Assembly: GCA_021789895.1 (NCBI GenBank)
Contig: JAJYIU010000007.1
Location: 62,001-126,000 of the forward strand
Direction of reading: 5' to 3'
DNA: 64,000 nt
DNA from: Acidobacteriota bacterium
GTDB lineage: Bacteria; Acidobacteriota; Terriglobia; Terriglobales; SCQP01
Below are positions 5,714 to 56,377 of the stretch, piece after piece. Made by a program: the position numbers and the translations under genes. Within the stretch, counting starts at the first letter, position 1, and each line of letters opens with the position of its first letter. Below the pieces are notes generated by a model, which saw only the letters and a program-made list of their open reading frames with translations, ran no database searches and was not told where the DNA came from.

Positions 5714-5750
5714 TGATTCATGATTCTACTCTGCTTGGTGATTTCGATGA

Positions 5751-6911
<1,161 letters not shown>

Positions 6912-6972
6912 TTTCGCTTCGAGTTTCGCGGGCTCCTGCGGCGCTTGCGGCGGGGTGCAGTACAATCGCTCC

Positions 6973-7605
6973 ATGCACCTTTCTTCCTTGAGCTCCATGT
7001 CGCTCCTGCTGGCCGTGGGATCGCTGCTGGCCGCCTGCCACAGCCAGACCGCCAAGCTGGGGCCGCAGCCGGCGCCGCCGGGCAACTACACTGCCACCAT
7101 CGAAACCAGCCTGGGGAACATCGAAATCGAGTTGTTTCCCCAGCAGGCGCCGCTGGCGGTGGGCAACTTCGTCGGCCTGGCGCAGGGTACGCAGCCCTGG
7201 AAGAATCCGAAAACCGGCGAAATCGAGCATGGCAAGCCGCTCTACAACGGCACCATCTTTCACCGCGTGATCCCGGGCTTCATGATCCAGGGCGGCGATC
7301 CGCTCGGCACCGGAACCGGCGATCCGGGCTATCAGTTCGCCAATGAGATCGTTCCCGGCCTGGGCTTCGACCGCGCCGGCCGGGTCGGCATGGCCAATGC
7401 CGGCCCGAATACCAACGGTTGCCAGTTCTTCATCACCACCGGGCCGCAGCCGCACTTGAATGGCGGCTATACCGTTTTTGGCCAGGTCACTAAGGGACAG
7501 TCGGTGGTGGATGCGATCTCGAACGTGCCGCGCAACCGTCAGGACCGCCCGCTGACGCCGGTGGTGATTAAAACCATCTCCATCCAGCGCCTACCTAGCG
7601 CCTAA
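6973..7605 (+). CDS. cyclophilin-type peptidyl-prolyl isomerase, probable lipoprotein
   Basis: The cyclophilin fold is clear: FHRVIPGFMIQGGDP (active-site Arg), N-T-N-G-C-Q-F-F-I-T and V-F-G-Q-V occur in the usual order. The N-terminus carries a lipoprotein signal with lipobox LAAC (Cys22 from the ATG at 6973), so the enzyme is probably tethered in the periplasm and helps fold exported proteins. The ATG at 6973 is preferred to a GTG at 6955 because it gives a normal n-region; an ATG at 6997 would remove almost all of it. It lies 61 bp after the esterase gene and is convergent with the repeat/TPR gene. Length (210 aa) fits bacterial periplasmic cyclophilins. Confidence 0.9.
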   Translation: MHLSSLSSMSLLLAVGSLLAACHSQTAKLGPQPAPPGNYTATIETSLGNIEIELFPQQAPLAVGNFVGLAQGTQPWKNPKTGEIEHGKPLYNGTIFHRVIPGFMIQGGDPLGTGTGDPGYQFANEIVPGLGFDRAGRVGMANAGPNTNGCQFFITTGPQPHLNGGYTVFGQVTKGQSVVDAISNVPRNRQDRPLTPVVIKTISIQRLPSA

Positions 7606-7642
7606 GCCGCCGTCTGCTGCCAGGCTATTTATCCTGCCGCCG

Positions 7643-8830
7643 CTAGCGGCCCTTCTCGCCATTGCTGCTTGCCGGCGCGGCCGGCTGGTAGGGCATGCCA
7701 TACGTCGTGAATCGGGTATCCAGCGTCGCATCCAGCTTCAGCGCGGCGGCATAATCGGCCTGCGCGGCGTCGGTTTCGCCCAGCCTTCGTTCCGCCAGGG
7801 CGCGGCCGTAGAGCGAGCTGGCCAGCTTGGGGGTTATCTTTAACGCCGCGTTATAGTCGCTCAGCGCCGCATTGGCGTTTTGCAGCTTGAGATATACGAA
7901 GCCGCGGCTGTCGTAAGCTTCGTCATAATTCGAAAAATCCGCTATCGAGGCGTTGCAGTCGCTCAGCGCCCGCTGCAGCCGCCCCAGGATGGCTTCCGAC
8001 CAGCAGCGGTCGTTCAAGTACACGTAATTGTTCGGATCATAGTTCAACGCGGTGCTGTATTCGCGCACCGCAAGCCGGTAGTCGTGGCGGTTATAGGCGG
8101 TTTGACCGAGTTTAAAAGCGGCCAGAGCGGCAGGCGGAATCGCAACAACGTCCAGGCTGCCATATCGCACCCAGCGATACCCGTCCGCATGCAGAAAATT
8201 GCCATCCCCGGCGCAAAGCAGGTGAGGCTTGCCGCTCACAGGCATGTTTTTCGGCTGGGGGATGACTTCGTAATTGTGCGGATCGTTGGGATAGGCCCAG
8301 CGCCAGCACACGTCGGGATGAAAGCTGCCGCTGCCGTTGCCGACCAGGTGCGGATGGCCGGGAATCGGTTCTCCCGCCGGGACGGGTTCGACCGCATAGT
8401 TGTTTTGATCGTTGGGATTGACCCATCGCCAGCCCATGGCGGGATGAAACTTTCCGGTGCCGTCGCAGCGTAAGTTTGGATAATTGCTTGGGGTCGCGCC
8501 TGCCGCCTGCGGGGTGACTTCGTAATTGTGCGGATCGTTCGGATACACCCAGCGCCAGCACGCTTCGGGATGAAAGCTGCCGCTGCCGTTGCCGACCAGG
8601 TGCGGATGGCCGGGGATCCCCACATTGTTGGGCACCGGTTCGACGGCGTAATTATGGGGATCGTTGGGATAGAGCCAGCGATAGCCCATTTGCGGCTTCA
8701 GATTGCCGTCTGCGGAGCGCACCACGTGCGCCGGCAGGGATTGCCCCGCCGCCGGCAGGGCCGAGAAGGCTAACCCGCACCAGATAATGCCCAAAAATAT
8801 CGGCCAATGCCAACGCTGCCGCAGCTTCAT
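7643..8830 (-). CDS. secreted protein with five 42-residue W-R-W/Y-P-N-D repeats and TPR domain
   Basis: The 395-residue product has a Sec signal peptide (about residues 1-30). A repeat region follows with the aromatic triplet Y/W-R-W at residues 50, 92, 134, 176 and 218, exactly 42 residues apart. Four units continue with x-(Y/N)-P-N-D-(P/Q)-(H/N)-N-Y-x-V, and the fifth is degenerate. Units 1 and 3 share GHPHLVGNGSGSFHP and end in similar sequence, which suggests duplication of a two-unit block. The C-terminal half (about 235-375) has three or four TPR-like helical pairs with phrases such as A-V-R-E-Y-S-T-A-L-N-Y-D-P. It is likely a periplasmic or surface binding protein; I do not know the repeat family. 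GGGAGGAG precedes the ATG. Confidence 0.8.
   Translation of the reverse strand: MKLRQRWHWPIFLGIIWCGLAFSALPAAGQSLPAHVVRSADGNLKPQMGYRWLYPNDPHNYAVEPVPNNVGIPGHPHLVGNGSGSFHPEACWRWVYPNDPHNYEVTPQAAGATPSNYPNLRCDGTGKFHPAMGWRWVNPNDQNNYAVEPVPAGEPIPGHPHLVGNGSGSFHPDVCWRWAYPNDPHNYEVIPQPKNMPVSGKPHLLCAGDGNFLHADGYRWVRYGSLDVVAIPPAALAAFKLGQTAYNRHDYRLAVREYSTALNYDPNNYVYLNDRCWSEAILGRLQRALSDCNASIADFSNYDEAYDSRGFVYLKLQNANAALSDYNAALKITPKLASSLYGRALAERRLGETDAAQADYAAALKLDATLDTRFTTYGMPYQPAAPASSNGEKGR
8156..8683 (-). repeat. five 126-bp coding repeats (42-aa period)
   Basis: Within the gene at 7643-8830, residues 50 to about 225 are built from units of exactly 42 residues. The first and third units, and the second and fourth, are more alike than neighbours. 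The last unit keeps Y-R-W but loses P-N-D. Confidence 0.85.
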
Positions 8831-8872
8831 GCTATCTCCTCCCGGAAATAGGGCTTATGTGCCTGCGTATCT

Positions 8873-8901
8873 TATATAACAGGCTTACTATCTGAATGCA
8901 A
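8873..8901 (-). promoter_or_regulatory. promoter of the repeat/TPR gene
   Basis: On the minus strand TTGCAT (8901-8896), a 17-bp spacer and TATATA (8878-8873) form a good vegetative-type promoter. The transcript leader would be about 35 bases and contains the strong Shine-Dalgarno GGGAGGAG. Confidence 0.6.
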
Positions 8902-8944
8902 CTATATCGTCGGGCGGAAAGCCCCTGCATGTATTTTCCCTGAT

Positions 8945-9259
8945 TTATTTCGGCCCGAAGTTGCGGGCCAGGTAATCCACCAGGGCCGGCTCGTCGTCAG
9001 GGTTGACGGGGGCGCCGAGCTGGATCATCTGGTTCACGGTTTTCTGCCAGCTCGCGCGGCTTTGCGGATGTTGGCGAAGCATGTCGAGCGAATGGCAGCC
9101 GCTGCAACCGGATTGCACGAGCTGCATGATTTGCGCATCTTGAACGCTCATCGCCGCCGCTCCGGCGGGGGGCCGAGGCTCCGGTTTGCGGTCGGCCAGC
9201 GCGACGATTACGGATATGCCGATCGCCAGCAATAAGAGAAGAATCGCGGGTTGTTTCAA
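8945..9259 (-). CDS. membrane-anchored monoheme c-type cytochrome
   Basis: A 104-residue protein with a single hydrophobic anchor (about residues 4-22) and one heme-binding motif C-S-G-C-H (52-56). Downstream W71, M78 and the ending V-D-Y-L-A-R-N-F-G match small class-I-like cytochromes in which Met78 could be the sixth ligand. It should face the periplasm and carry electrons. A TTG at 9259 is preferred as start because AAGGGAG lies six bases upstream; the TTG at 9265 abuts it. The gene is 24 bp after mtnA and looks like the last gene of the CPBP-pyrE-mtnA operon, an unusual place for a cytochrome. Partner proteins are not apparent. Confidence 0.78.
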   Translation of the reverse strand: MKQPAILLLLLAIGISVIVALADRKPEPRPPAGAAAMSVQDAQIMQLVQSGCSGCHSLDMLRQHPQSRASWQKTVNQMIQLGAPVNPDDEPALVDYLARNFGPK

Positions 9260-9283
9260 GCCCAACTCCCTTTACCTTCCATC

Positions 9284-10354
9284 TTAGCCTGCCTCCGCGC
9301 CGGTCGCGGCGCCGGCGAGCGCCCGCAGGCTTTCCGCCAGGGGCGGGCGCGCCACTCCCGCTTCGGTCACAATCGCGCTGATGTAGCGGTGCGGCGTGAC
9401 GTCGAAGGCGGGATTGCAAACTGCCAGCCCTTCCGGAGCGATGCGCACCCCCTGCAGATGCGTGACCTCCTCCGCAGCGCGTTCCTCGATCGGGATGGCG
9501 GCGCCGCTGGCAAGCGAGAGGTCGAGGGTCGAAAGCGGCGCCGCGACGTAAAACGGCACGCCGTTCTCCTGCGCCAGTACGGCCAGCGAATAGGTGCCGA
9601 TTTTATTGGCGGTGTCGCCGTTGGCGGCAATGCGGTCGGCGCCGACGATGATGGCTTGAATCGCGCCTTGATGGAGAAAATGCCCCGCCATGTTGTCCGT
9701 AATCAGGCGCACGGGAATGCCATCCTGCTGCAGCTCCCAGGCGGTGAGCCGGGCGCCTTGTAAAAACGGGCGGGTCTCGTCGGCATAGACTTCGAGCCGC
9801 TTGCCGGCGGCGATGGCGGCGCGAATCACCCCCAGCGCGGTGCCGAAGCCGGCGGTCGCCAGCGCGCCGGCATTGCAGTGAGTGAGCACGCGGCCGGCAT
9901 CGGGCATCAGCCCGGCGCCGTTCGCTCCCAGCCGGCGATTGATGGCAATGTCTTCCTCGTATATCGCCCGGGCTTCGGTCACCAGCCGTTCTTCCAGCCG
10001 CGCGGGCGAGTCTTGCGCCGCCTGTCCTGCGGCGAAAACCTGGCGCATGCGCGCCAGCCCCCAGACCAGGTTGACCGCGGTCGGCCGGGTGCGGAACAAA
10101 CGATCGCATATGCGCTCGAATTCCGCCTGCAGGCGGGCGCCGGTTTCGCCCCGGCGCAGCGCCGCGCGCCCCCCCAGCGCCGCCCCCATCGCCGCGGCGA
10201 CCCCGATCGCCGGCGCTCCGCGCACCACCATCGTGCGGATCGCTTCGGCGACTTCCTCATAGTTGCGGCAAAGCCGGTAGGCGATTTGTCCCGGAAGCAG
10301 CCGCTGATCCAGCAGCCGTACTCCCTCTTCCGTCCATTCCAGCGTGGGTAGCAT
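9284..10354 (-). CDS. mtnA: S-methyl-5-thioribose-1-phosphate isomerase
   Basis: MtnA converts methylthioribose-1-phosphate to methylthioribulose-1-phosphate in the methionine salvage pathway. The 356-residue product keeps the catalytic Cys160 (THCNAG) and Asp240 ([19 protein letters not shown]) at the positions known for the bacterial enzyme, plus the [10 protein letters not shown] motif near residue 42. The ATG at 10354 gives a typical length; the longer open frame upstream is pyrE sequence read in another frame. No other methionine-salvage gene is visible here. It sits 29 bp after pyrE and probably shares its transcript. The paralogous eIF2B-alpha and ribose-1,5-bisphosphate isomerase families are less likely. 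Confidence 0.93.
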
Positions 10355-44327: not shown

Positions 44328-44515
44328 CGCTCCGCCGTCCATCCCACCCCCCCGCCGCTCATCGCCCTTTTTCCGCCGCCGATCGCTTTTCCGCCGGCCG
44401 GCGCTGTTGCCGGGGCTCAGGCTCGAAGCATGAACAAATCACGCCGCTTCCTGATGTGCTTTTTCTGGACCTTGCTCAGCCTGACGGCCCTGCGCCTCCC
44501 GGCCCGCGCCGATTG
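44328..44515 (+). repeat. 188-bp direct repeat, copy 1
   Basis: Covers the upstream region and the signal-peptide codons of the first small secreted paralogue. It matches 44944-45131 with about six differences. Identity stops right after the signal-peptide cleavage site. Confidence 0.9.
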
Positions 44516-44930
44516 TGCAGGTGGTTTCATGGCCGGCTTTGGACGCCAGCCGGGGCCGCGGCCTAATTTGCAGACTTTCGGCATTCGCTTTGGGGGCGGA
44601 AGCTGCCTGCTGGCATTCGATCTCGATCTCGAACGAGTGCAACGGAAATTCGGTTTTACCTCCGCTTTAGGAGTTATGTTGCCTCTTAGCCCAGCCATTC
44701 CATTGAGCAAACGTCGTTTTTTTGATTTTTACGCTTATCCCGGCGTCGGCTATCACCTCGGCGGCGGTGGCTTGCATGGTTTTGCATTTATTACCGCCGG
44801 AACCTTTATCAATTTGAGTGCCGATACCGGAATGCTGCTTGAATACCGCCGCCGCATTCGCTTTAATGCCTCGCATCCTGATGCCGGCTGGCAATTTGAA
44901 ATTGGATATGTGTTGATTGTACAAGATTGA
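44430..44930 (+). CDS. small secreted protein, paralogue A
   Basis: A 166-residue protein with a clear Sec signal peptide (residues 1-27, M-N-K-S-R-R-F-L through L-P-A-R-A). The mature part is Gly/Phe/Tyr-rich with alternating hydrophobic stretches and contains YPGVGYHLGGGGLHGF. It ends in A-G-W-Q-F-E-I-G-Y-V-L-I-V-Q-D. The pattern would fit a small outer-membrane beta-barrel, but I do not recognise the family. The frame is open upstream to 44238, yet the ATG at 44430 is chosen because it starts the signal peptide and because the same ATG is kept in paralogue B. The two genes are 616 bp apart, start to start. Confidence 0.72.
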   Translation: MNKSRRFLMCFFWTLLSLTALRLPARADCAGGFMAGFGRQPGPRPNLQTFGIRFGGGSCLLAFDLDLERVQRKFGFTSALGVMLPLSPAIPLSKRRFFDFYAYPGVGYHLGGGGLHGFAFITAGTFINLSADTGMLLEYRRRIRFNASHPDAGWQFEIGYVLIVQD

Positions 44931-44943
44931 TCTGAAACTTGGC

Positions 44944-45131
44944 CGCTCCGCCGTCCATCCCGCACCCCCGCCGCTCATCGCCCGTTTTCCGCCGCCGATC
45001 GCTTTTCCACCGGCCGGCGCTGTTGCCGGGGCTCAGGCTCGAAGCATGAACAAATCACGCCGCTTCCTGATGTGCTTTTTCTGGACTTTGCTCAGCCTGA
45101 CGGCCCTGCGCCTCCCGGCCCGCGCCGACTG
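44944..45131 (+). repeat. 188-bp direct repeat, copy 2
   Basis: Second copy of 44328-44515, offset 616 bp, about 97% identical. It covers the region upstream of paralogue B and its signal peptide; its first bases lie 14 bp after the stop of paralogue A. Confidence 0.9.
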
Positions 45132-45540
45132 CCTGATCGGATTCAATGTCATGCATGGCATGCAGTCCGGCCCGCATGCTGACTCCAATGCTCTGGGGTT
45201 GGAAGGTGTATGCCCATTAGACGTGCGATTGCAGATAAATCAAATTGGGAACCATATAGGCCTCAGCACTTCGATGGGATTATTAATTCCATTTGGTTTA
45301 AAGCGGTTTTTAAAAAATGGGTCCGTTCGCTGGATACCATATCTGCAGGCCGGACCCGGCTATCATTTCGGTGGCGGCGGCTTGCATGGTTTTGGCTATG
45401 CTGGCGGCGGCGTTTTTTGGCATTGGGAAAAAAATGAATTTGTGCAACTTGATTTCACCCAACGCTTTCGATTCCGCACGACCCGCACCAATGCCGGCTG
45501 GCAAATTGGCATTGGCCTGGTCTGGATTGTGCAGGATTAA
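45046..45540 (+). CDS. small secreted protein, paralogue B
   Basis: A 164-residue protein whose signal peptide is identical to that of paralogue A. The mature part is diverged, sharing mainly A/P-G-x-G-Y-H-x-G-G-G-G-L-H-G-F in the middle and A-G-W-Q-I-x-I-G at the end, and again closing in I-V-Q-D. It has two Cys (in D-C-L-I and V-C-P-L) close to the mature N-terminus. It sits directly after A in the same orientation. Likely exported to the periplasm or outer membrane; unknown function. The near-identical leader and promoter segment implies recent duplication of that part or gene conversion. Confidence 0.72.
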   Translation: MNKSRRFLMCFFWTLLSLTALRLPARADCLIGFNVMHGMQSGPHADSNALGLEGVCPLDVRLQINQIGNHIGLSTSMGLLIPFGLKRFLKNGSVRWIPYLQAGPGYHFGGGGLHGFGYAGGGVFWHWEKNEFVQLDFTQRFRFRTTRTNAGWQIGIGLVWIVQD

Positions 45541-48225: not shown

Positions 48226-49200
48226 ATGAGACAACATGGCCTGGAGCGAGGCTGGGGATGGGCAGTGAGCCTGGCGGTGATCGGCCTGGCGGGTTGGGGC
48301 CTGGGCCAGCAGCCGGCCAAGCCCGCGAAACCGGCCGGCTATGTCGGGGTGTCGGTCTGCAAGATGTGCCACCCCGCTCAGTATCAGAGCTATCTCGCCA
48401 ATCCCATGTCGCACCGGGCGGCCATGCTGGCGGCGGCGCGGCGCGCCGGCCTGCCCCGGATCAGCGGCTGTGAAAGTTGTCATGGTCCGGGTGCGGCGCA
48501 TGTGAAAGCGATGGCCGGCGCCGGCGGCGATGCCGCCAAGATTCATGCCATCTATAAGCGCCAACTGGTCTGGGGCTTTTTCCCCGGCAATGGCGCCAAG
48601 GCCAATAGCCAGCGCTGCCTCGCCTGCCATGCCACCGGCCTGCAGCAGGCGCATTTCGCGCATTCGGTGCATCTGGACAACAACGTCGGCTGCCTGAACT
48701 GCCATACCGTGCATGGCAAGCATTCCGGGGCGCATTTCCTGCTGGCTTCCCAGCCGCAGCTCTGTTACCGCTGCCATCTGCAGCAGCGGGCTCAGTTCCA
48801 GTTGCCCTGGCATCATCGCGTCAACGAAGGCCTGGTGCGCTGCAGCGACTGCCACGATCCCCACGGCAGCCTGATTCAAACCCAGTTGCACCAGGGCCCG
48901 GCCGGCGACCAGGTCTGCTTCAAATGCCATGAGGACAAGCAGGGCCCGTTCGTGTACGAGCACGAGCCGGTCAAGACCGAGGGCTGCACCGATTGCCATA
49001 CCCCCCACGGCTCGCCCAACCCGCACCTGCTGAAAGTGGCCAACGTCAACCAGCTCTGTCTCCAGTGCCATACCGCTTCCAGCTTCAGCGGCGCGCCCGG
49101 CACCCCGAGCTTCCACAATCAGGCCGCGCAGTTCCAGGCCTGTACCCTCTGCCATACCCAGATTCATGGTTCGAACCTCGATCCGGCTTTCACCCGTTAG
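48226..49200 (+). CDS. decaheme c-type cytochrome (DmsE/MtrA/PioA family)
   Basis: The 324-residue product has a Sec signal peptide (about 1-28) and ten C-x-x-C-H motifs, whose first Cys are at 45, 82, 131, 156, 180, 206, 231, 254, 278 and 306. This is the hallmark of MtrA, PioA and DmsE, which sit inside an outer-membrane barrel and pass electrons across it. Many extra His (H-S-V-H, H-G-K-H, H-H-R-V) can serve as distal ligands. The chain is of typical length for the family. GAGGCGGAAG lies before the ATG; an in-frame ATG at 48211 is an alternative. The porin gene follows 22 bp later. No DMSO reductase gene is nearby. Confidence 0.94.
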   Translation: MRQHGLERGWGWAVSLAVIGLAGWGLGQQPAKPAKPAGYVGVSVCKMCHPAQYQSYLANPMSHRAAMLAAARRAGLPRISGCESCHGPGAAHVKAMAGAGGDAAKIHAIYKRQLVWGFFPGNGAKANSQRCLACHATGLQQAHFAHSVHLDNNVGCLNCHTVHGKHSGAHFLLASQPQLCYRCHLQQRAQFQLPWHHRVNEGLVRCSDCHDPHGSLIQTQLHQGPAGDQVCFKCHEDKQGPFVYEHEPVKTEGCTDCHTPHGSPNPHLLKVANVNQLCLQCHTASSFSGAPGTPSFHNQAAQFQACTLCHTQIHGSNLDPAFTR

Positions 49201-49222
49201 TCGAGCTGAGGAGAGATTGGTT

Positions 49223-51730
49223 ATGCCTAAATATCGCAGCAGCGCATGGTTGACCCGCTTGGCCCCGGCCGGGTTGCTGGGCGTCCTTCTGGCGCTGGCC
49301 CCCTTCCATGCCGCGGCGCAGTCGCCCGCCACCGGCACCGATTGGAATGGCTTTAACGTCCAAAACACCATCGTGTTGGGCGGCCGCGCCACTTCCACCT
49401 CCGGCAACCTGGAGAATTACGACACCATGGTCAATCTCCATTCCGGGGTGCGGCTGTTGAACTTCAATCTCGGCCTGCGCTCCCTCTCCGGCACCAAAAG
49501 CTGGTTCGACGAATTGCAGTTGAGCGGCTTTGGCTTCGGCGGAGACCCCAATGACGTCGCCCGGCTGCGGATCAGCAAGTCCAAGGCCTACGACTTCTCC
49601 GCCTTGTTCCGGCGCGATAACTATTTCTTCGGGTACAACTTCCTCGCGAACCCGCTCAACCCGAATAACTCCACCCCCACCGTGCCCATCACCACCGCCA
49701 TCCATGGCATCAACTACGTGCGCGATATGGGCGACTACAACCTCACGCTGCTGCCGCAGTCGAGCTTCCGCATTCGCCTGGGGTATTCGCACCTGCGCGA
49801 AACCGGGCCCTCGCTCACCACCGTCGGCGCGGCCATGAGCAACGGCGTGGCCGAAGTCGGAACCGACGCGAAGCTGAATCAGGAGTTCTCGACCTCAACC
49901 GACATGTACCGCGCCGGCTTCGATATCTACCCCGCCGCCCGCACCCGTTTCTCCTTCATGGAACTGGTGCAGCACACCAAGGGCGATACTTCGCTGGAAG
50001 ATCTCAACCAGCTTTTCGTTTTGCCCAACGGCACTCCGGTGGACCTGGGCGAGGTCTGGAATACCAAGGGCGGCTCGCCTTGCGCCTCGCCGTTTTTAAC
50101 CCCGCCCACGAATCCGCAGACCGCCAATCCCGCCTGTTCCGGCCTGATCGCCTATACCGGCGACACCATGCCGCGCATCACCATGCCCACCGAGCAGGTC
50201 GCGCTCGAAAGCAACTACTTCCGCAAATTGTCGCTGGATGGCACATTCAGCTACACCTCCGGCGTGCTGCGCGACGCCAACGAATATGACCGCTGGGCCG
50301 GCTACTCCACTCGCATCCTTTCCGCCGCCGACAATGAAACCGCCACCGGGCGTTCCAAGCGCGTGCTGGTCAACGGCGACCTGGCCGCCGTTTACGATGC
50401 CACCTCGAAGCTGCACATTACTGAATCCACCACCTACAACTCCTTCCGCATTCCTTCCCAGCTCGGCTTCCTGGTGCTGAACACCTATTACCAGGCGCCG
50501 CCTTCGCTGATCGGGACCCCGGCGGTTTTCAATGCCACCAACTGCCCGGCGCCTTACACGGCCGCCAGTTGCCCGCAGCATAACTCGTCATCCGCTCCGG
50601 ATGCCGCCCTTGGCAATGCTTTGATGTATTTGGGGCAGAATTATTTGACCGAGACCGTTCGCGCCGGCTATGACTTCTCGCCCCGCTTCGGCGCCCAGCT
50701 CGGCTACCGCTACAGCTACCGCACGATTTACGACTACAACGCCCTGGATTACACCAGCGAAACTTTCTATCCCGGCGGTTCCACCGGCGCCTCCGAAGCC
50801 GCGCGCGGCGATTGCGCCCTGCCCAAGGGCGGCGCTTTCCCCGCCTCCCTGCCCGCCGGCTGCACCCTCCAGGCAGATGGCTCGGTCGTCTTCACCGGCT
50901 TCACTCCCGGCAGCGATACCCAACACAATCAGGGCGTCGCGATCCACGGCAATTCGGCGTTGTTCAATACCTGGGCGCTGCCGGCCAACAATCTCCGCCT
51001 CAGCTTCAGCCTGGAATTGTTCTCCGCCGATCATTCCTTCACCCGCATCACCCCGCGGCAGTACCAGCACTATATCGTGCAGGTCAATTACAAGCCGCTG
51101 ACCTGGGCCCAGTTGGCGAGTTGGATCAACCTCTACAACGGGCGCGATAACGTCGCCGAAGTGAACAATAAAGAGCACGATCGCAGCTACGGCGTCACCG
51201 CCACTATCAACCCCCGCGACAGCCTGTTCTTCGATCTCGGCTACAACTACGACAACATTTACACGCAGGCGATCGAGTGCTATTCGCTGGGCTTCGGCCC
51301 GCTCCCGGCCAATGCCACCGCCTGCCCCGAAGCCGGCTCGCCGGTGCCCATCGGCGCGCTCTCGACCTATAGCGACAAGCAGCATTCCGTCAATGCCGAC
51401 CTGCTATGGAAGCCGGTCGCGCCGCTCTCCCTGCGGGTGGGCATGGCCGGCAGCTACGTCAAAGGCCTGCCGATTTTCTTCAATCTCAATGGCATCGCTA
51501 CCGGCAACTTCATCAATTCCCGCACCCCCTGGGGGCCGCTGAGCTTCAATTATCAGGAGCCTTACGCCGGCTTTACGTATTCGTTCACTAAAAACGTGGC
51601 TTACACCATGAATTGGCAGCTTTACGATTACCGCACCCATGGCAACCAGACGCCGGCCGGGCTGGCCCCGCTCGGGACGCAGAATTTCAAGGTAAACACC
51701 ACCACCTTTGGCATCCAATTCTCGCTGTAA
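49223..51730 (+). CDS. outer-membrane beta-barrel porin, MtrB/PioB type
   Basis: The 835-residue protein has a signal peptide (about 1-29, cut after H-A-A-A-Q) and then alternating amphipathic strands with aromatic girdles throughout, for example R-L-G-Y-S-H-L-R and F-D-L-G-Y-N-Y-D-N. Placement 22 bp after a decaheme cytochrome, with GAGGAGAG before the ATG, makes it the barrel that sheaths the cytochrome, as MtrB/PioB do. Length is at the large end of the family. Eight Cys fall in four close pairs (near 290/305, 439/448, 530/545, 685/700), probably in loops. The Shewanella N-terminal C-x-x-C is absent. Family assignment rests on topology and context. Confidence 0.8.
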   Translation: MPKYRSSAWLTRLAPAGLLGVLLALAPFHAAAQSPATGTDWNGFNVQNTIVLGGRATSTSGNLENYDTMVNLHSGVRLLNFNLGLRSLSGTKSWFDELQLSGFGFGGDPNDVARLRISKSKAYDFSALFRRDNYFFGYNFLANPLNPNNSTPTVPITTAIHGINYVRDMGDYNLTLLPQSSFRIRLGYSHLRETGPSLTTVGAAMSNGVAEVGTDAKLNQEFSTSTDMYRAGFDIYPAARTRFSFMELVQHTKGDTSLEDLNQLFVLPNGTPVDLGEVWNTKGGSPCASPFLTPPTNPQTANPACSGLIAYTGDTMPRITMPTEQVALESNYFRKLSLDGTFSYTSGVLRDANEYDRWAGYSTRILSAADNETATGRSKRVLVNGDLAAVYDATSKLHITESTTYNSFRIPSQLGFLVLNTYYQAPPSLIGTPAVFNATNCPAPYTAASCPQHNSSSAPDAALGNALMYLGQNYLTETVRAGYDFSPRFGAQLGYRYSYRTIYDYNALDYTSETFYPGGSTGASEAARGDCALPKGGAFPASLPAGCTLQADGSVVFTGFTPGSDTQHNQGVAIHGNSALFNTWALPANNLRLSFSLELFSADHSFTRITPRQYQHYIVQVNYKPLTWAQLASWINLYNGRDNVAEVNNKEHDRSYGVTATINPRDSLFFDLGYNYDNIYTQAIECYSLGFGPLPANATACPEAGSPVPIGALSTYSDKQHSVNADLLWKPVAPLSLRVGMAGSYVKGLPIFFNLNGIATGNFINSRTPWGPLSFNYQEPYAGFTYSFTKNVAYTMNWQLYDYRTHGNQTPAGLAPLGTQNFKVNTTTFGIQFSL

Positions 51731-51770
51731 ATGCACCGCGATCAAGCTGCAATGTTGACTCGATTTCAGC

Positions 51771-51796
51771 GGCCAGGCTGGCCTCCCAGCCTGGCC
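51771..51796 (+). terminator. strong hairpin between porin and monoheme cytochrome genes
   Basis: A perfect 11-bp stem GGCCAGGCTGG / CCAGCCTGGCC with a 4-base loop, 41 bp after the porin stop, followed after six bases by TTTT. It may partly terminate or protect the upstream mRNA. Confidence 0.5.
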
Positions 51797-51924
51797 CGCC
51801 CGTTTTCCGCGCACGGGAAAGTGGAAAGTTTCGGAACCCCGGCCTCCACGGGTTCATCTAATAAAGTGGCGAGGCAGAATGGCTCCGCCTCGGCGGCCTG
51901 ACCCGCCAGGAAAGGGATCGCAGG

Positions 51925-52263
51925 ATGAAAACCCAACGCTTGCAATGGCTGGCTATGCTGGCGGCGCTGGCCGCTTTCGCGCTGCTGCCGATAATCGCGC
52001 GCGCTCAAACCGCGCATTCCATGTTCAATTCCAAGTGCGCCGCCTGCCACGGCGCCGATGGCGCCGGTACCACAGCGATGGGACGCATGATGCATATCCC
52101 CAGCTTCAACTCAGCGCCGGTGCGCAAAATGACCAACGCCAAGCTGGCTGCGATCATCACCCATGGCAAAACCCCCATGCCGGCTTTCCAGGGCCAGTTG
52201 ACCAAACGCCAGATCGGCGAGTTGGTGGAATACATCCGCACCCTGCAGAAACAAAAAAGATAA
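51925..52263 (+). CDS. periplasmic monoheme cytochrome c (class I)
   Basis: A 112-residue protein with a signal peptide (1-27) and a small class I cytochrome fold: heme motif C-A-A-C-H (38-42), sixth ligand Met85 in T-P-M-P-A-F, and a C-terminal helix I-G-E-L-V-E-Y-I-R-T-L. Such soluble carriers move electrons between the inner-membrane chain and periplasmic partners. It lies 194 bp after the porin gene in the same direction, so it is the natural electron donor or acceptor of the decaheme-porin complex. AGG lies three bases before the ATG at 51925. Confidence 0.9.
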   Translation: MKTQRLQWLAMLAALAAFALLPIIARAQTAHSMFNSKCAACHGADGAGTTAMGRMMHIPSFNSAPVRKMTNAKLAAIITHGKTPMPAFQGQLTKRQIGELVEYIRTLQKQKR

Positions 52264-52452: not shown

Positions 52453-52467
52453 ATGAATAGTATTCAT
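52453..52467. promoter_or_regulatory. 15-bp palindrome overlapping the mfd start codon
   Basis: ATGAATAGTATTCAT is a perfect 7-1-7 inverted repeat whose last two bases are the A and T of the mfd ATG. A bound repressor or an mRNA hairpin here would block initiation. Confidence 0.45.
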
Positions 52468-55400
52468 GCCCGCAGCCCACCCCATCCTGCCGCTGGCGCG
52501 CGAGTTCCTGCTGGAAATGGCAGAGCGCTCGGGCGCGGCGCCGCTGGAGCGCGCCATCGCCGCCGGCGTGCGGCCTCGCGCCGACGGACTGATTCCGGCG
52601 GCGCAGTCGCTGCTCGCGGTCTGGTTGCACCGCCTGAGTGGACGCCCGGTGCTGTTGCTCGCCGCCGATAACGCGGCGGCGGAGGAACGCTGCCGCGAGC
52701 TGGCATTTTTTCAGGCGATGACGCACGGCGCCGGCCCCGGCGAAGAGCCGCCGCTGGTTCTGCCCGCCTTCGAACACGACCCCTACGAAGGCCTCGCCCC
52801 GCATGAGGAAATTCTCGAACGCCAGGCGCTGGCGCTGTGGCGCGCCGCCAATGGCGCCGCCGCCCTGCTGGTCGCCCCCGCCGCCGCGGCGCTGCTGCGC
52901 CTCGGTCCGCCGGAATCCTATCGCATTCTCGGACGAAGCCTCCGCCGCGGCGAACGCCTCGAACTGGAAGAGCTGGTCGTCCACCTCCGCCGCGTCGGCT
53001 ACCGGCAGGATGAGTTGGTCGAGATGCCGGGACAGTTCGCCCGCCGCGGCGGCCTGCTCGATCTCTACAGCCCCGAAGCCGAATGGCCGCTGCGAGTGGA
53101 ATTTTTCGGCGATGAAATCGAGTCGCTGCGCCAGTTCGATCCCGCCACCCAGCGCTCCACGCAGGCTTTGGAGCAGGCGTGGCTGGCCCCGCTGGCGGTG
53201 GCCGGGCTGCCCGAAGCTGAAGACCGCGGTATGGCCGCCGGCTGGGCCGGCTTGCTCGCCGCCGCCCCCGGCGGCGAGCCCGGCCGGCACTCCATTCTCG
53301 ACCTCAATCCCCGCGCCCTGGTCCTGGTTTCCGAGCCGGAAATGGTCATGGCGGAATGCCGCCGCTGGTGGGAACGGCTGGAGCGCCGTTACCGCCAGGC
53401 CGCCGACCTGGCCCGCGCCGCCGGCCTCACGCCTCCGCCTCCCGCCGAGCTTTTCCATGCCCCTGCCGAGCTCGAGTCCTGGATCGCCGACGTGCCCGGC
53501 GCCGAACTGCGCGAGCTGCATATTTCTCCACCCCAGCCTGCATCCGGCCGCAACGCCGCCACTTGCGCGAATGCCGGCGCCGCCCACCTCGAACCCGATG
53601 CCGTCAAACGCGGCCGCCCTGAGCTCGAAGCTGAGCAGCGCGGCCGCCTCGAACTCGAGGCTGAGGCTTGGCTGCTGCGCGCCAATGCCCCTGGTTCACA
53701 ATCGCCCGCCGCCGGCTCCGCCTCATCCGCCCCACCCCCGCCCGCCGCCGGTTCCCCGTCACCGCCTGGGTTTTCTTACGCCACCCGCCCCGCGCCGCAT
53801 CCCGTGGGCGGCATTGCCCGTCTCCTGGAGGAGCTACGCCGCCGACTGGATGCCGGCGAGCGTCTGCTGCTGGTGGCCGCCAATCCCGGCGAACTGGAAC
53901 GGCTGAGCGATGTACTGCTGGAAAACCATCTTCCCTTCCAGCTCGGCATCCGTCCCGCCGGCGGCGGCGACTGGCTGGCCGAAAAAGCCCACACCCGCGC
54001 CGCGGCCGCCGCTCCGCTGCTCGTCGCCGGCGGGCTGGCGCGCGGCCTGGAATGGCGCAGCGAGTGGCGCGGCCAGTCCGTGGCCGCAGTGATCTTCGGC
54101 AATGCCGATCTGCTGCCGCGTGAAGCCGCCGTGCCCTCGCCCCCGCCTCGCGCCCGCTCCCGCCTGGGCGCTTTCCTCGGCGATTTCCGCGACCTCAAGC
54201 CCGGCGATTTTGTGGTCCATCTGGAGCACGGCATCGCCCGCTACCAGGGGCTGGCTAAGATGCCCGCCACCGGCGGCGCCGCCGAAGCCGAGTTCATGCT
54301 GCTCGAATACGCCGAGGGGGCCAAGCTTTACCTGCCGCTGACCCGCATGGACCAGGTGCAGAAATACCGCTCCGGCGACGGCGCCCAGCCTCCGCTCGAC
54401 CGCCTCGGCGGCACGCAGTGGGCGCAGCGCAAAAACCGCGTCAAGCGCGCCATGCAGGACATGACCGACGAGCTGCTCAAGCTTTATGCCGCCCGCCAGA
54501 CCGCCCGCATCGAGCCGTGCGGCCCCGATGCGCATTGGCAGCGCGAGTTCGAAGACGCTTTCCCCTTTGTCCTCACCGAAGACCAGGCGCGCGCCATCGA
54601 AGACGTCCGCCGCGACCTGCTGCAGCCCCGCCCCATGGACCGCCTCCTGGTCGGCGACGTGGGCTACGGCAAAACCGAAGTTGCCATGCGCGCCGCCTTC
54701 AAGCTGGTGAGCGAGGGCCGCCAGGCCGCCGTGCTCGCCCCCACCACCGTGCTTGCCTTCCAGCATTTCGAAACCTTTCGCAACCGCTTTGCCGCCTTTC
54801 CCGTACGCATCGAACTGCTCAGCCGCTTCCGCTCCCGCGCCGAGCAGGCCGCGGTGCTCGAGGCCCTCGCCGCCGGCCAGGTGGATATCGTGATTGGCAC
54901 CCACCGCCTGCTCTCCAAAGACGTACGCTTCCAGCGCCTCGGTCTGCTGGTGGTGGATGAAGAGCAGCGCTTTGGCGTCCGCCACAAAGAACGCCTGAAA
55001 CAGCTCAAGCAGGAAGTCCACGTGCTGGCGCTCTCCGCCACGCCCATTCCCCGCACGCTCAACATGTCACTCGCCGGTTTGCGCGACCTTTCCGTCATCG
55101 AAACCCCGCCCAAAGACCGGCTGGCCATTCAGACCGTCGTCGCCGGCGGCGGCGAAGAGCTCGTGCGCCAGGCGCTTGAAACCGAGCTGGAGCGCGGCGG
55201 CCAGGTCTTCTACATTCACAACCGCGTCGAATCTATTTGGGAAACTGCCGCCTGGCTGCAGGAACTGGCTCCCGCCGCCCGCATCGCCGTCGCTCACGGG
55301 CAAATGGACGGCGCCGGCCGCAGCCGCGCCGCCGCCGCCGAGCGCGCCTCCCTTGGCGCGCGCCGGGCGTTGGCGGGCCGCCGCGGCCCGGACCCCGATC

Positions 55401-56377
55401 GCGATCGAGCCGGCGCGGCCGCGTCCGGGCCGGAAGCGCCGCGCGGCGAAGCCGAGCTCGAGCGCGTCATGCTCCGCTTTATCCGCCACGAGGCCGACAT
55501 CCTGGTCTCCACCAGCATTGTCGAAAACGGCCTCGATATCCCCCTCGCCAACACCATCATCATCGAGCGCGCCGATCGCTTCGGTCTGAGCGAGCTGTAT
55601 CAGCTTCGCGGACGCGTCGGACGCTCCAACCGCCGCGCTTATGCGTATCTGCTCGCCCCCTCGCTGAGCGAGTTGTCGCCCCTGGCGCGCAAGCGCCTCG
55701 CCGCCATGCGCGAGTTCAGCGACCTCGGCGCCGGCTTTAAAATCGCCGCCCTCGACCTCGAACTGCGCGGCGCCGGCAACCTGCTTGGCGCCGAGCAGAG
55801 CGGGCACATCGAAGCCGTCGGCTTCGATCTCTACCTGCGCATGCTGGAGCAGACTGTGCGCGAGCGCCGCGGCGAAGCCCCGCCCGCCGGCGGCGAAACC
55901 GCGATCCAGATTCAACTCGGCATTGAAATCGGCATCCCCGAAAGCTATATCCCCGGCGAAACCCAGCGGCTGCGCATGTACAAGCGCATTGCCGAGGCCG
56001 GCGAGGAAGCCGCCCGTGAAGACGTCGCGCGCGAACTCGCCGACCGCTTTGGCCCGCCGCCCCCGCCGGTGCGCCATCTGCTCGCCTACGCCGCGATCAA
56101 GGCCGCCTGCCTGCGCCTCGGCCTGCGCGCCCTCGAACGCCGGCGCGACCAACTCGTCCTCCACTTTGCCGCCGATGCCGGCGCCGGGCTCGACCGGCGA
56201 AAACTGGCCGAACTGGTAGCCCGGCTCCGCGGCGCGCAGCTCAGCCCGCAAGGCGTGCTCAAGCTCCCCTTCCGCGCCGAAGGCCCCGTCGCCACCCTCG
56301 AGGCGGTGCAAAAGCTGCTCGCCCAGCTCGCCGCTCCCCCCGGCCCGGCGAGCGGCGGCGCCCGCAATCACCGCTGA
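52466..56377 (+). CDS. mfd: transcription-repair coupling factor Mfd
   Basis: Mfd removes stalled RNA polymerase and recruits UvrA. The 1303-residue protein has an N-terminal UvrB-like module (about 1-350), an RNA-polymerase-interacting domain starting [13 protein letters not shown] (about 576), and a RecG-like helicase with [11 protein letters not shown] (about 729-740), DEEQRFG (about 831), [10 protein letters not shown] and [11 protein letters not shown]-terminal TRCF domain follows. Length exceeds E. coli Mfd (1148) because of two insertions: a Pro/Ala/Ser linker with a repeated R-G-R-x-E-L-E-A-E unit (about 355-440) and about 46 Arg/Ala-rich residues (948-996) between H-G-Q-M and E-L-E-R-V-M. 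Frame continues cleanly after both. Confidence 0.95.

Follow-up and report, generated by a model that had tools for sequence, protein, structure and literature searches.

Can an acidobacterial cell pass electrons through its outer membrane and, if so, in which direction? The question is raised by three consecutive genes in the window, a stretch of 64,000 nucleotides (C17:62001-126000) from the draft genome of a soil acidobacterium, 3.75 Mb in 79 contigs (95.5% complete). An earlier note on this DNA described a decahaem cytochrome (DEC), a strand-rich putative porin (POR), and a monohaem cytochrome (CYT), and read them as a trans-outer-membrane conduit. All three were found again among the open reading frames of the window, with exactly the coordinates and spacings described: POR starts 22 bp 3' of DEC, and CYT starts 194 bp 3' of POR.

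DEC, 48226..49200, + strand: exported decahaem c-type cytochrome of the DmsE/MtrA family, 324 aa (CXXCH count; TIGR03508; PDB 6r2q_A).
POR, 49223..51730, + strand: predicted outer-membrane barrel of 26 strands and MtrB fold, not captured by the MtrB/PioB models, 835 aa (AlphaFold [AF2] model and its match to 6r2q_B).
Outer loop of POR linking strands 9 and 10, 50000..50140, + strand: residues 260-306, with C287/C305 (loop map from the model; conservation).
CYT, 51925..52263, + strand: exported class I monohaem cytochrome c, 112 aa, one CXXCH (PF13442).

Each protein begins with a hydrophobic stretch that, judged by eye, reads as an export signal.

DEC carries ten CXXCH motifs, as previously counted, which start at residues 45, 82, 131, 156, 180, 206, 231, 254, 278, and 306; 20,000 shuffles of the protein gave a mean of 0.10 and a maximum of 2. 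All ten are invariant across 54 relatives, as are the C-terminal HGSN and eight additional histidines, which could be the distal haem ligands. DEC passes the cut-off of the DmsE/MtrA model TIGR03508 (237.6 bits; cut-off, 192.2) and not that of the GSU2203 model NF041028 (189.8 bits; cut-off, 325), and therefore is assigned to the DmsE/MtrA family. Its top PDB match is 6r2q chain A, the MtrA subunit of the Mtr complex (E 2.2e-30). An AlphaFold model of DEC without haem is of low confidence (pLDDT 64.6) and was used for its top fold match only; MtrA is the sole significant one. (In the PDB copy searched, 6r2q chain A is labelled 'Cystathionine beta-synthase', a possible trap for automatic annotation.)

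POR receives no family assignment from Pfam, NCBIfam or PHROGs. It matches neither PF11854 nor TIGR03509, and PF11854 is without a match in the whole source genome. The profile search proposed in the earlier note thus bears out the DmsE-type cytochrome, but finds no MtrB/PioB match for its partner. This is not due to models that are weak in this phylum, because PF11854 detects true MtrB/PioB porins in 55 of 199 Acidobacteriota genomes, and TIGR03509 matches all 11 of the true acidobacterial MtrB/PioB proteins tested. When a profile of 71 PORs was aligned with one built from 11 MtrB/PioB proteins (hhalign, run without an unrelated barrel profile as control), the two matched over 504 columns with a probability of 97.7 (E 1.7e-12) at about 10% identity.

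An AlphaFold model of POR from the 71-sequence alignment (mean pLDDT 86; pTM 0.79) contains 26 membrane strands, as many as the literature gives for MtrB, PioB, and MtoB (PMC10654088). Foldseek ranks MtrB first among solved structures (E 6.4e-15). A second fold program also places MtrB first (6r2q_B; Z 25.4; 588 of 649 residues aligned at 3.8 angstrom); the runner-up is a TonB receptor with Z 15.4, and unrelated receptors score about 15. In the model, periplasmic turns of 2-9 residues alternate with outer loops of up to 52, which is the loop map of an outer-membrane barrel. All four cysteine pairs fall within the long outer loops, and two are well kept among the 71 relatives: C287/C305 (94 and 97%) and C686/C701 (100 and 77%). 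This suggests that the outer loops are stapled by disulphides. By sequence, POR is a branch apart from MtrB/PioB that the standard family models miss.

CYT matches PF13442 (E 4.2e-15), confirming the exported class I cytochrome noted 194 bp past POR. It is not a high-potential iron-sulphur protein (HiPIP) of the PioC type, and is a probable periplasmic electron carrier.

Is the trio a conserved unit? A scan for POR relatives, with one genome per species, returned 172 encoding stretches, of which 80 loci, nearly all from Terriglobia, were analysed. DEC lies immediately 5' of POR in 79 of these 80, so the survey of gene order that the earlier note called for upholds the pairing; the remaining locus (L108) begins 215 bases before POR, at a contig end. 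CYT lies 3' of POR in 48 of the 71 loci with enough sequence. The nearest relative, from the same genus, keeps the order DEC-POR-CYT (84, 75, and 59% identical, respectively) and has flanking genes identical in kind; the closest named relative of the source genome is Acidobacteria MAG YP1.bin64 (MAG, metagenome-assembled genome). POR alone is present in 26 of 60 near relatives; throughout the Acidobacteriota, 93 of 396 genomes give a match to its profile. No POR was found in plasmid records.

In a tree of decahaem proteins, some branches of which are long, three groups emerge: POR-linked DECs (support 100/99); MtrB-linked proteins (99/98); and decahaem domains fused to a barrel (100/100). Because the decahaem groups split by porin type, cytochrome and porin types have evidently travelled together. 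True MtrAB pairs (PF11854; L173-L184) occur in the 55 of 199 genomes noted above, and some Terriglobales genomes (G024, G027) hold both MtrAB and DEC-POR. The titles of the 80 loci name Acidobacteriota or Terriglobia, with two exceptions: an unassigned bacterium MAG, and L150. The latter, labelled Betaproteobacteria, carries an acidobacterial-type module (5728-9722) with a DEC that nests among acidobacterial DECs; its label probably is a binning or naming error.

These results bear on whether POR is instead an ordinary receptor or transporter of the outer membrane that merely neighbours a decahaem cytochrome unrelated to it, with no conduit at all. POR does lack a family assignment, and single POR relatives graze generic barrel models (Pfam scan of 11 members). 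Nevertheless such an arrangement is scarcely credible: MtrB leads the fold matches by 10 Z units; DEC and POR are paired in 79 of 80 loci; and two cytochrome groups divide by porin type. The earlier note had raised both an unrelated receptor and too narrow a barrel as grounds for doubt. The 26 strands and the Z score of 25.4 for MtrB, against about 15 for TonB receptors, speak for the MtrB fold and against both grounds, the lumen being judged from strand number and fold. Judged by sequence and structural model, DEC-POR-CYT is a real, conserved porin-cytochrome conduit of a known kind of machine, with a distinct barrel branch. The trans-outer-membrane interpretation first offered thus gains support from the DEC family match, the POR fold, and the conserved pairing.

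This conduit likely runs outward, a reading held with good confidence: from quinol through an inner-membrane oxidase to CYT, to DEC within POR, and on to an external acceptor. The source cell probably can pass respiratory electrons to external iron minerals or humic matter. POR would span the outer membrane as a 26-strand barrel, and DEC would occupy its lumen as a ten-haem wire from periplasm to cell surface. Quinol would be oxidised by an ImcH-like protein or a Rieske/cytochrome b complex encoded elsewhere in the genome; CYT would shuttle electrons through the periplasm between that oxidase and DEC; and the terminal acceptor would lie outside the cell, with Fe(III) oxide and humic quinones as candidates. 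Sequence and fold relationships, gene co-conservation, and the presence of partner genes are the grounds for predicting that DEC enters POR and is loaded with haem, that electrons flow, and in which direction and to what acceptor they do so. MtrAB alone, without MtrC, moves electrons across membranes (PMC4245776).

The partner genes are seen mostly in relatives. A quinol-oxidising module lies within 41 of 60 loci: ImcH-like in 17; NapC/NrfH-like trihaem in 15; and Rieske plus cytochrome b in 13. The ImcH-like proteins combine PF03264 with a CX3CH motif, in line with the account of ImcH itself in PMC6295460. CbcL-like proteins are found near the module in L124 and L169. Proteins with 11 and 13 haems near relatives' modules were considered as MtrC-like and rejected: they are either anchored in the membrane or CbcL-like, the latter having multiple haems and, judged by eye, helices of the cytochrome b561 type. 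Regulators of the CRP/FNR family occur in 14 of 53 long loci. A [NiFe] hydrogenase large subunit is encoded near the conduit genes of three relatives (L044, 10855-12600; L122, 14400-16109; L127, 2-994), which suggests hydrogen as an electron donor there. A motif scan of the 80 loci found no haem-copper oxidase.

In the source genome, no further redox genes are among the ten module neighbours scanned (38-62 kb). Two other contigs contain candidate partners: on C46, adjacent genes for a monohaem cytochrome, CYT2, and an ImcH-like protein (L061, 7590-9543); and on C70, an FNR-like regulator beside a Rieske and cytochrome b/c operon (L062, 5902-9393). Both sets likely are conduit partners split from the module. 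Other haem proteins of this genome are known only among the CXXCH matches listed.

The regulators may have a recognisable target. The palindrome GTGA-N6-TCAC occurs within 350 bp upstream of DEC in 30 of 72 loci (L093-L172), compared with 1.7 expected from the same contigs (Poisson p 7e-27, for related loci that are not fully independent). It resembles a CRP-type site, and is a predicted CRP/FNR-type operator. Several neighbouring regulators, as well as the FNR-like regulator of the source genome, contain the recognition helix TRETVSR or TRETxTR. Elsewhere in the source genome, the exact palindrome lies 48 bp 5' of a seven-haem cytochrome gene (L052, 7877); the palindrome is found also between the FNR-like regulator and the Rieske/cytochrome b operon, and with two mismatches 5' of the CYT2-ImcH pair. 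Such sites could serve to predict a regulon. The classic FNR box, TTGAT-N4-ATCAA, was tried as an alternative 5' of DEC and rejected, as it is not enriched. A scan for sigma-70 promoters around the module yielded nothing above chance.

Because quinol oxidases, anaerobic-type regulators, and hydrogenases are nearby, outward anaerobic respiration is favoured over Fe(II) oxidation; direction is thereby deduced from gene company, mostly in relatives. The alternative is an inward conduit as in PioAB and MtoAB, in which Fe(II) or another donor would deliver electrons to DEC and then through CYT to the respiratory chain. Like the Pio and Mto systems, this one shows no surface cytochrome, and its monohaem carrier recalls Mto, where PmcA connects MtoA with the inner membrane (PMC13390432). 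Yet the relatives' neighbours are quinol-oxidising modules, most often ImcH-like; CRP/FNR-family regulators accompany 14 of 53 loci, and [NiFe] hydrogenase 3; and haem-copper oxidase is missing from the motif scan of all 80. The inward route is rather unlikely on this evidence.

Several points weigh against an outward conduit nonetheless. Complexes of the bc type can run backwards in iron oxidisers, so that context does not fix direction. The quinol oxidases of the source genome sit on contigs other than that of the module, and about one-third of related loci have no recognised quinol module within the sequence examined. No good regulator site precedes DEC in the window, the best candidate having 3 mismatches in 10 fixed positions. 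Finally, complex formation and electron transfer themselves are predictions.

A third possibility concerns the acceptor. The family of DEC is named after DmsE, which with DmsF serves the Shewanella DMSO reductase, and the conduit could likewise be dedicated to a specific extracellular reductase encoded elsewhere, rather than to minerals or humics. This is quite improbable. The loci carry quinol oxidases, not a shared terminal reductase, and the ten neighbours scanned (38-62 kb) include no molybdopterin reductase, the rest of the genome not having been searched for one. The earlier statement that DMSO reductase genes are absent nearby holds for these same neighbours: none encodes a DMSO-reductase subunit as in DmsEFABGH, a search likewise confined to that region. 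The source cell probably can pass respiratory electrons to external iron minerals or humic matter.

How does the module compare with known systems? With Shewanella MtrAB and MtrCAB (PDB 6r2q) it shares a DmsE-family decahaem cytochrome, a 26-strand barrel nearest MtrB, and adjacent genes. POR differs from MtrB in sharing only about 10% identity, in lying outside PF11854 and TIGR03509, and in having four cysteine pairs in its outer loops. Unlike MtrCAB, the module was found without MtrC; a monohaem cytochrome gene follows POR; and relatives' quinol partners are ImcH-like, NapC-like, CbcL-like or bc. The earlier note had seen no MtrC/OmcA-like surface cytochrome in the surrounding sequence. This holds throughout the draft genome, in which none exceeds the cut-off of TIGR03507 (best, 21 bits; cut-off, 209), and so a conduit with a soluble shuttle and no known surface cytochrome fits.

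The same note therefore suggested a PioAB-like, two-component conduit with a soluble shuttle. The parts list fits: PioABC of Rhodopseudomonas and MtoABD of Sideroxydans also combine a small periplasmic carrier with the lack of a surface multihaem cytochrome, and CYT is a monohaem c-type cytochrome, like MtoD and PmcA. The rest of the analogy does not carry over, as POR is outside the PioB/MtoB model, CYT is not a HiPIP like PioC, and the gene context in relatives suggests export rather than the electron uptake of Pio and Mto.

A further parallel is Geobacter GSU2203/GSU2204, where a decahaem cytochrome likewise comes with a partner gene. Marginal matches to the GSU2204 model NF041027 are seen for several PORs (best E 1.5e-5). 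However, DEC falls below the NF041028 cut-off, and the window POR scores 12.3 bits against an NF041027 cut-off of 350 and lacks the CXXCH of that family. The Geobacter pair is resembled more closely by a second protein of the source genome, encoded on contig C22 (G000:C22:9839-12952; L051, 6840-9953). This single open reading frame joins a ten-haem GSU2203-like domain, a linker of about 90 residues, and a GSU2204-like barrel, which matches the MtrB/PioB profile with a probability of 97.2. Uninterrupted orthologues in three other genera (L064, L065, and L066) and a version split into two adjacent genes of the same order in a fifth genus (G034; L067) argue against an assembly artefact. The fusion is rare, with strong barrel matches in 7 of 396 genomes of the phylum, and a scan of viral contigs found none. 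The only precedent found in the open-access literature is Cyc2 (PMC8406198), which similarly unites cytochrome and barrel in one chain; Cyc2 carries one haem, whereas the C22 protein has a ten-haem MtrA-like domain, and DEC-POR is not fused.

Acidobacterial mtrA and mtrB homologues are already known. MtrA-type decahaem proteins from Arctic peat were proposed as iron-reduction markers in 2013 (PMC3669403), and mtrA/mtrB candidates without a complete operon were listed for 13 Acidobacteria genomes in 2018 (PMC5900883). These surveys cover the same phylum and shared strains; one of the latter, Edaphobacter aggregans DSM 19364 (L149), has the module. In the parts consulted, they list homologues, and mention neither a separate branch of porins nor linkage to CYT, quinol modules or an operator. 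Five Acidobacteriia have been reported to possess MtrCAB complete with a surface cytochrome (PMC8805035). That set, Group 5, likewise is a decahaem-porin conduit in Acidobacteriia, and includes mtrC and a tetrahaem cytochrome with no quinone oxidoreductase nearby; here, by contrast, the search for MtrC came up empty, and the DEC-POR genes of relatives often have quinol modules nearby.

The separate porin branch, the DEC-POR-CYT unit, its interchanged quinol modules, and the predicted operator appear to be new, not having been found described in the open-access literature. One study saw no mtrAB genes next to imcH (PMC6295460). Where an ImcH-like quinol oxidase neighbours a pair of decahaem cytochrome and porin, two halves of a pathway that a 2018 survey did not find together are joined.

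Terriglobia are common soil bacteria, and Acidobacteriota are abundant in soils and peat. It is somewhat probable that Terriglobia carry their own branch of conduit, unseen by MtrB/PioB models: a DEC-POR core, usually with CYT; interchanged quinol oxidases (ImcH-like, NapC-like, CbcL-like or bc); a CRP/FNR-family regulator; and in some genomes, including the source genome, a second decahaem wire fused to its barrel. Because surveys based on MtrB/PioB hidden Markov models miss POR, conduit counts in soil genomes probably are too low. This bears on whether Acidobacteriota use iron or humic matter for respiration in these habitats, a question that the presence of the module in cultured relatives makes directly testable.

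Two features of the window lie outside the module. The next gene 3' of CYT is mfd (52466-56377), with TRCF and DEAD domains. On the other side, a tandem duplication (44328-45538) repeats a 188-nt stretch at 97% identity with a spacing of 616 nt. It yields two small exported proteins without a Pfam match, which have a common signal peptide and diverged mature parts.

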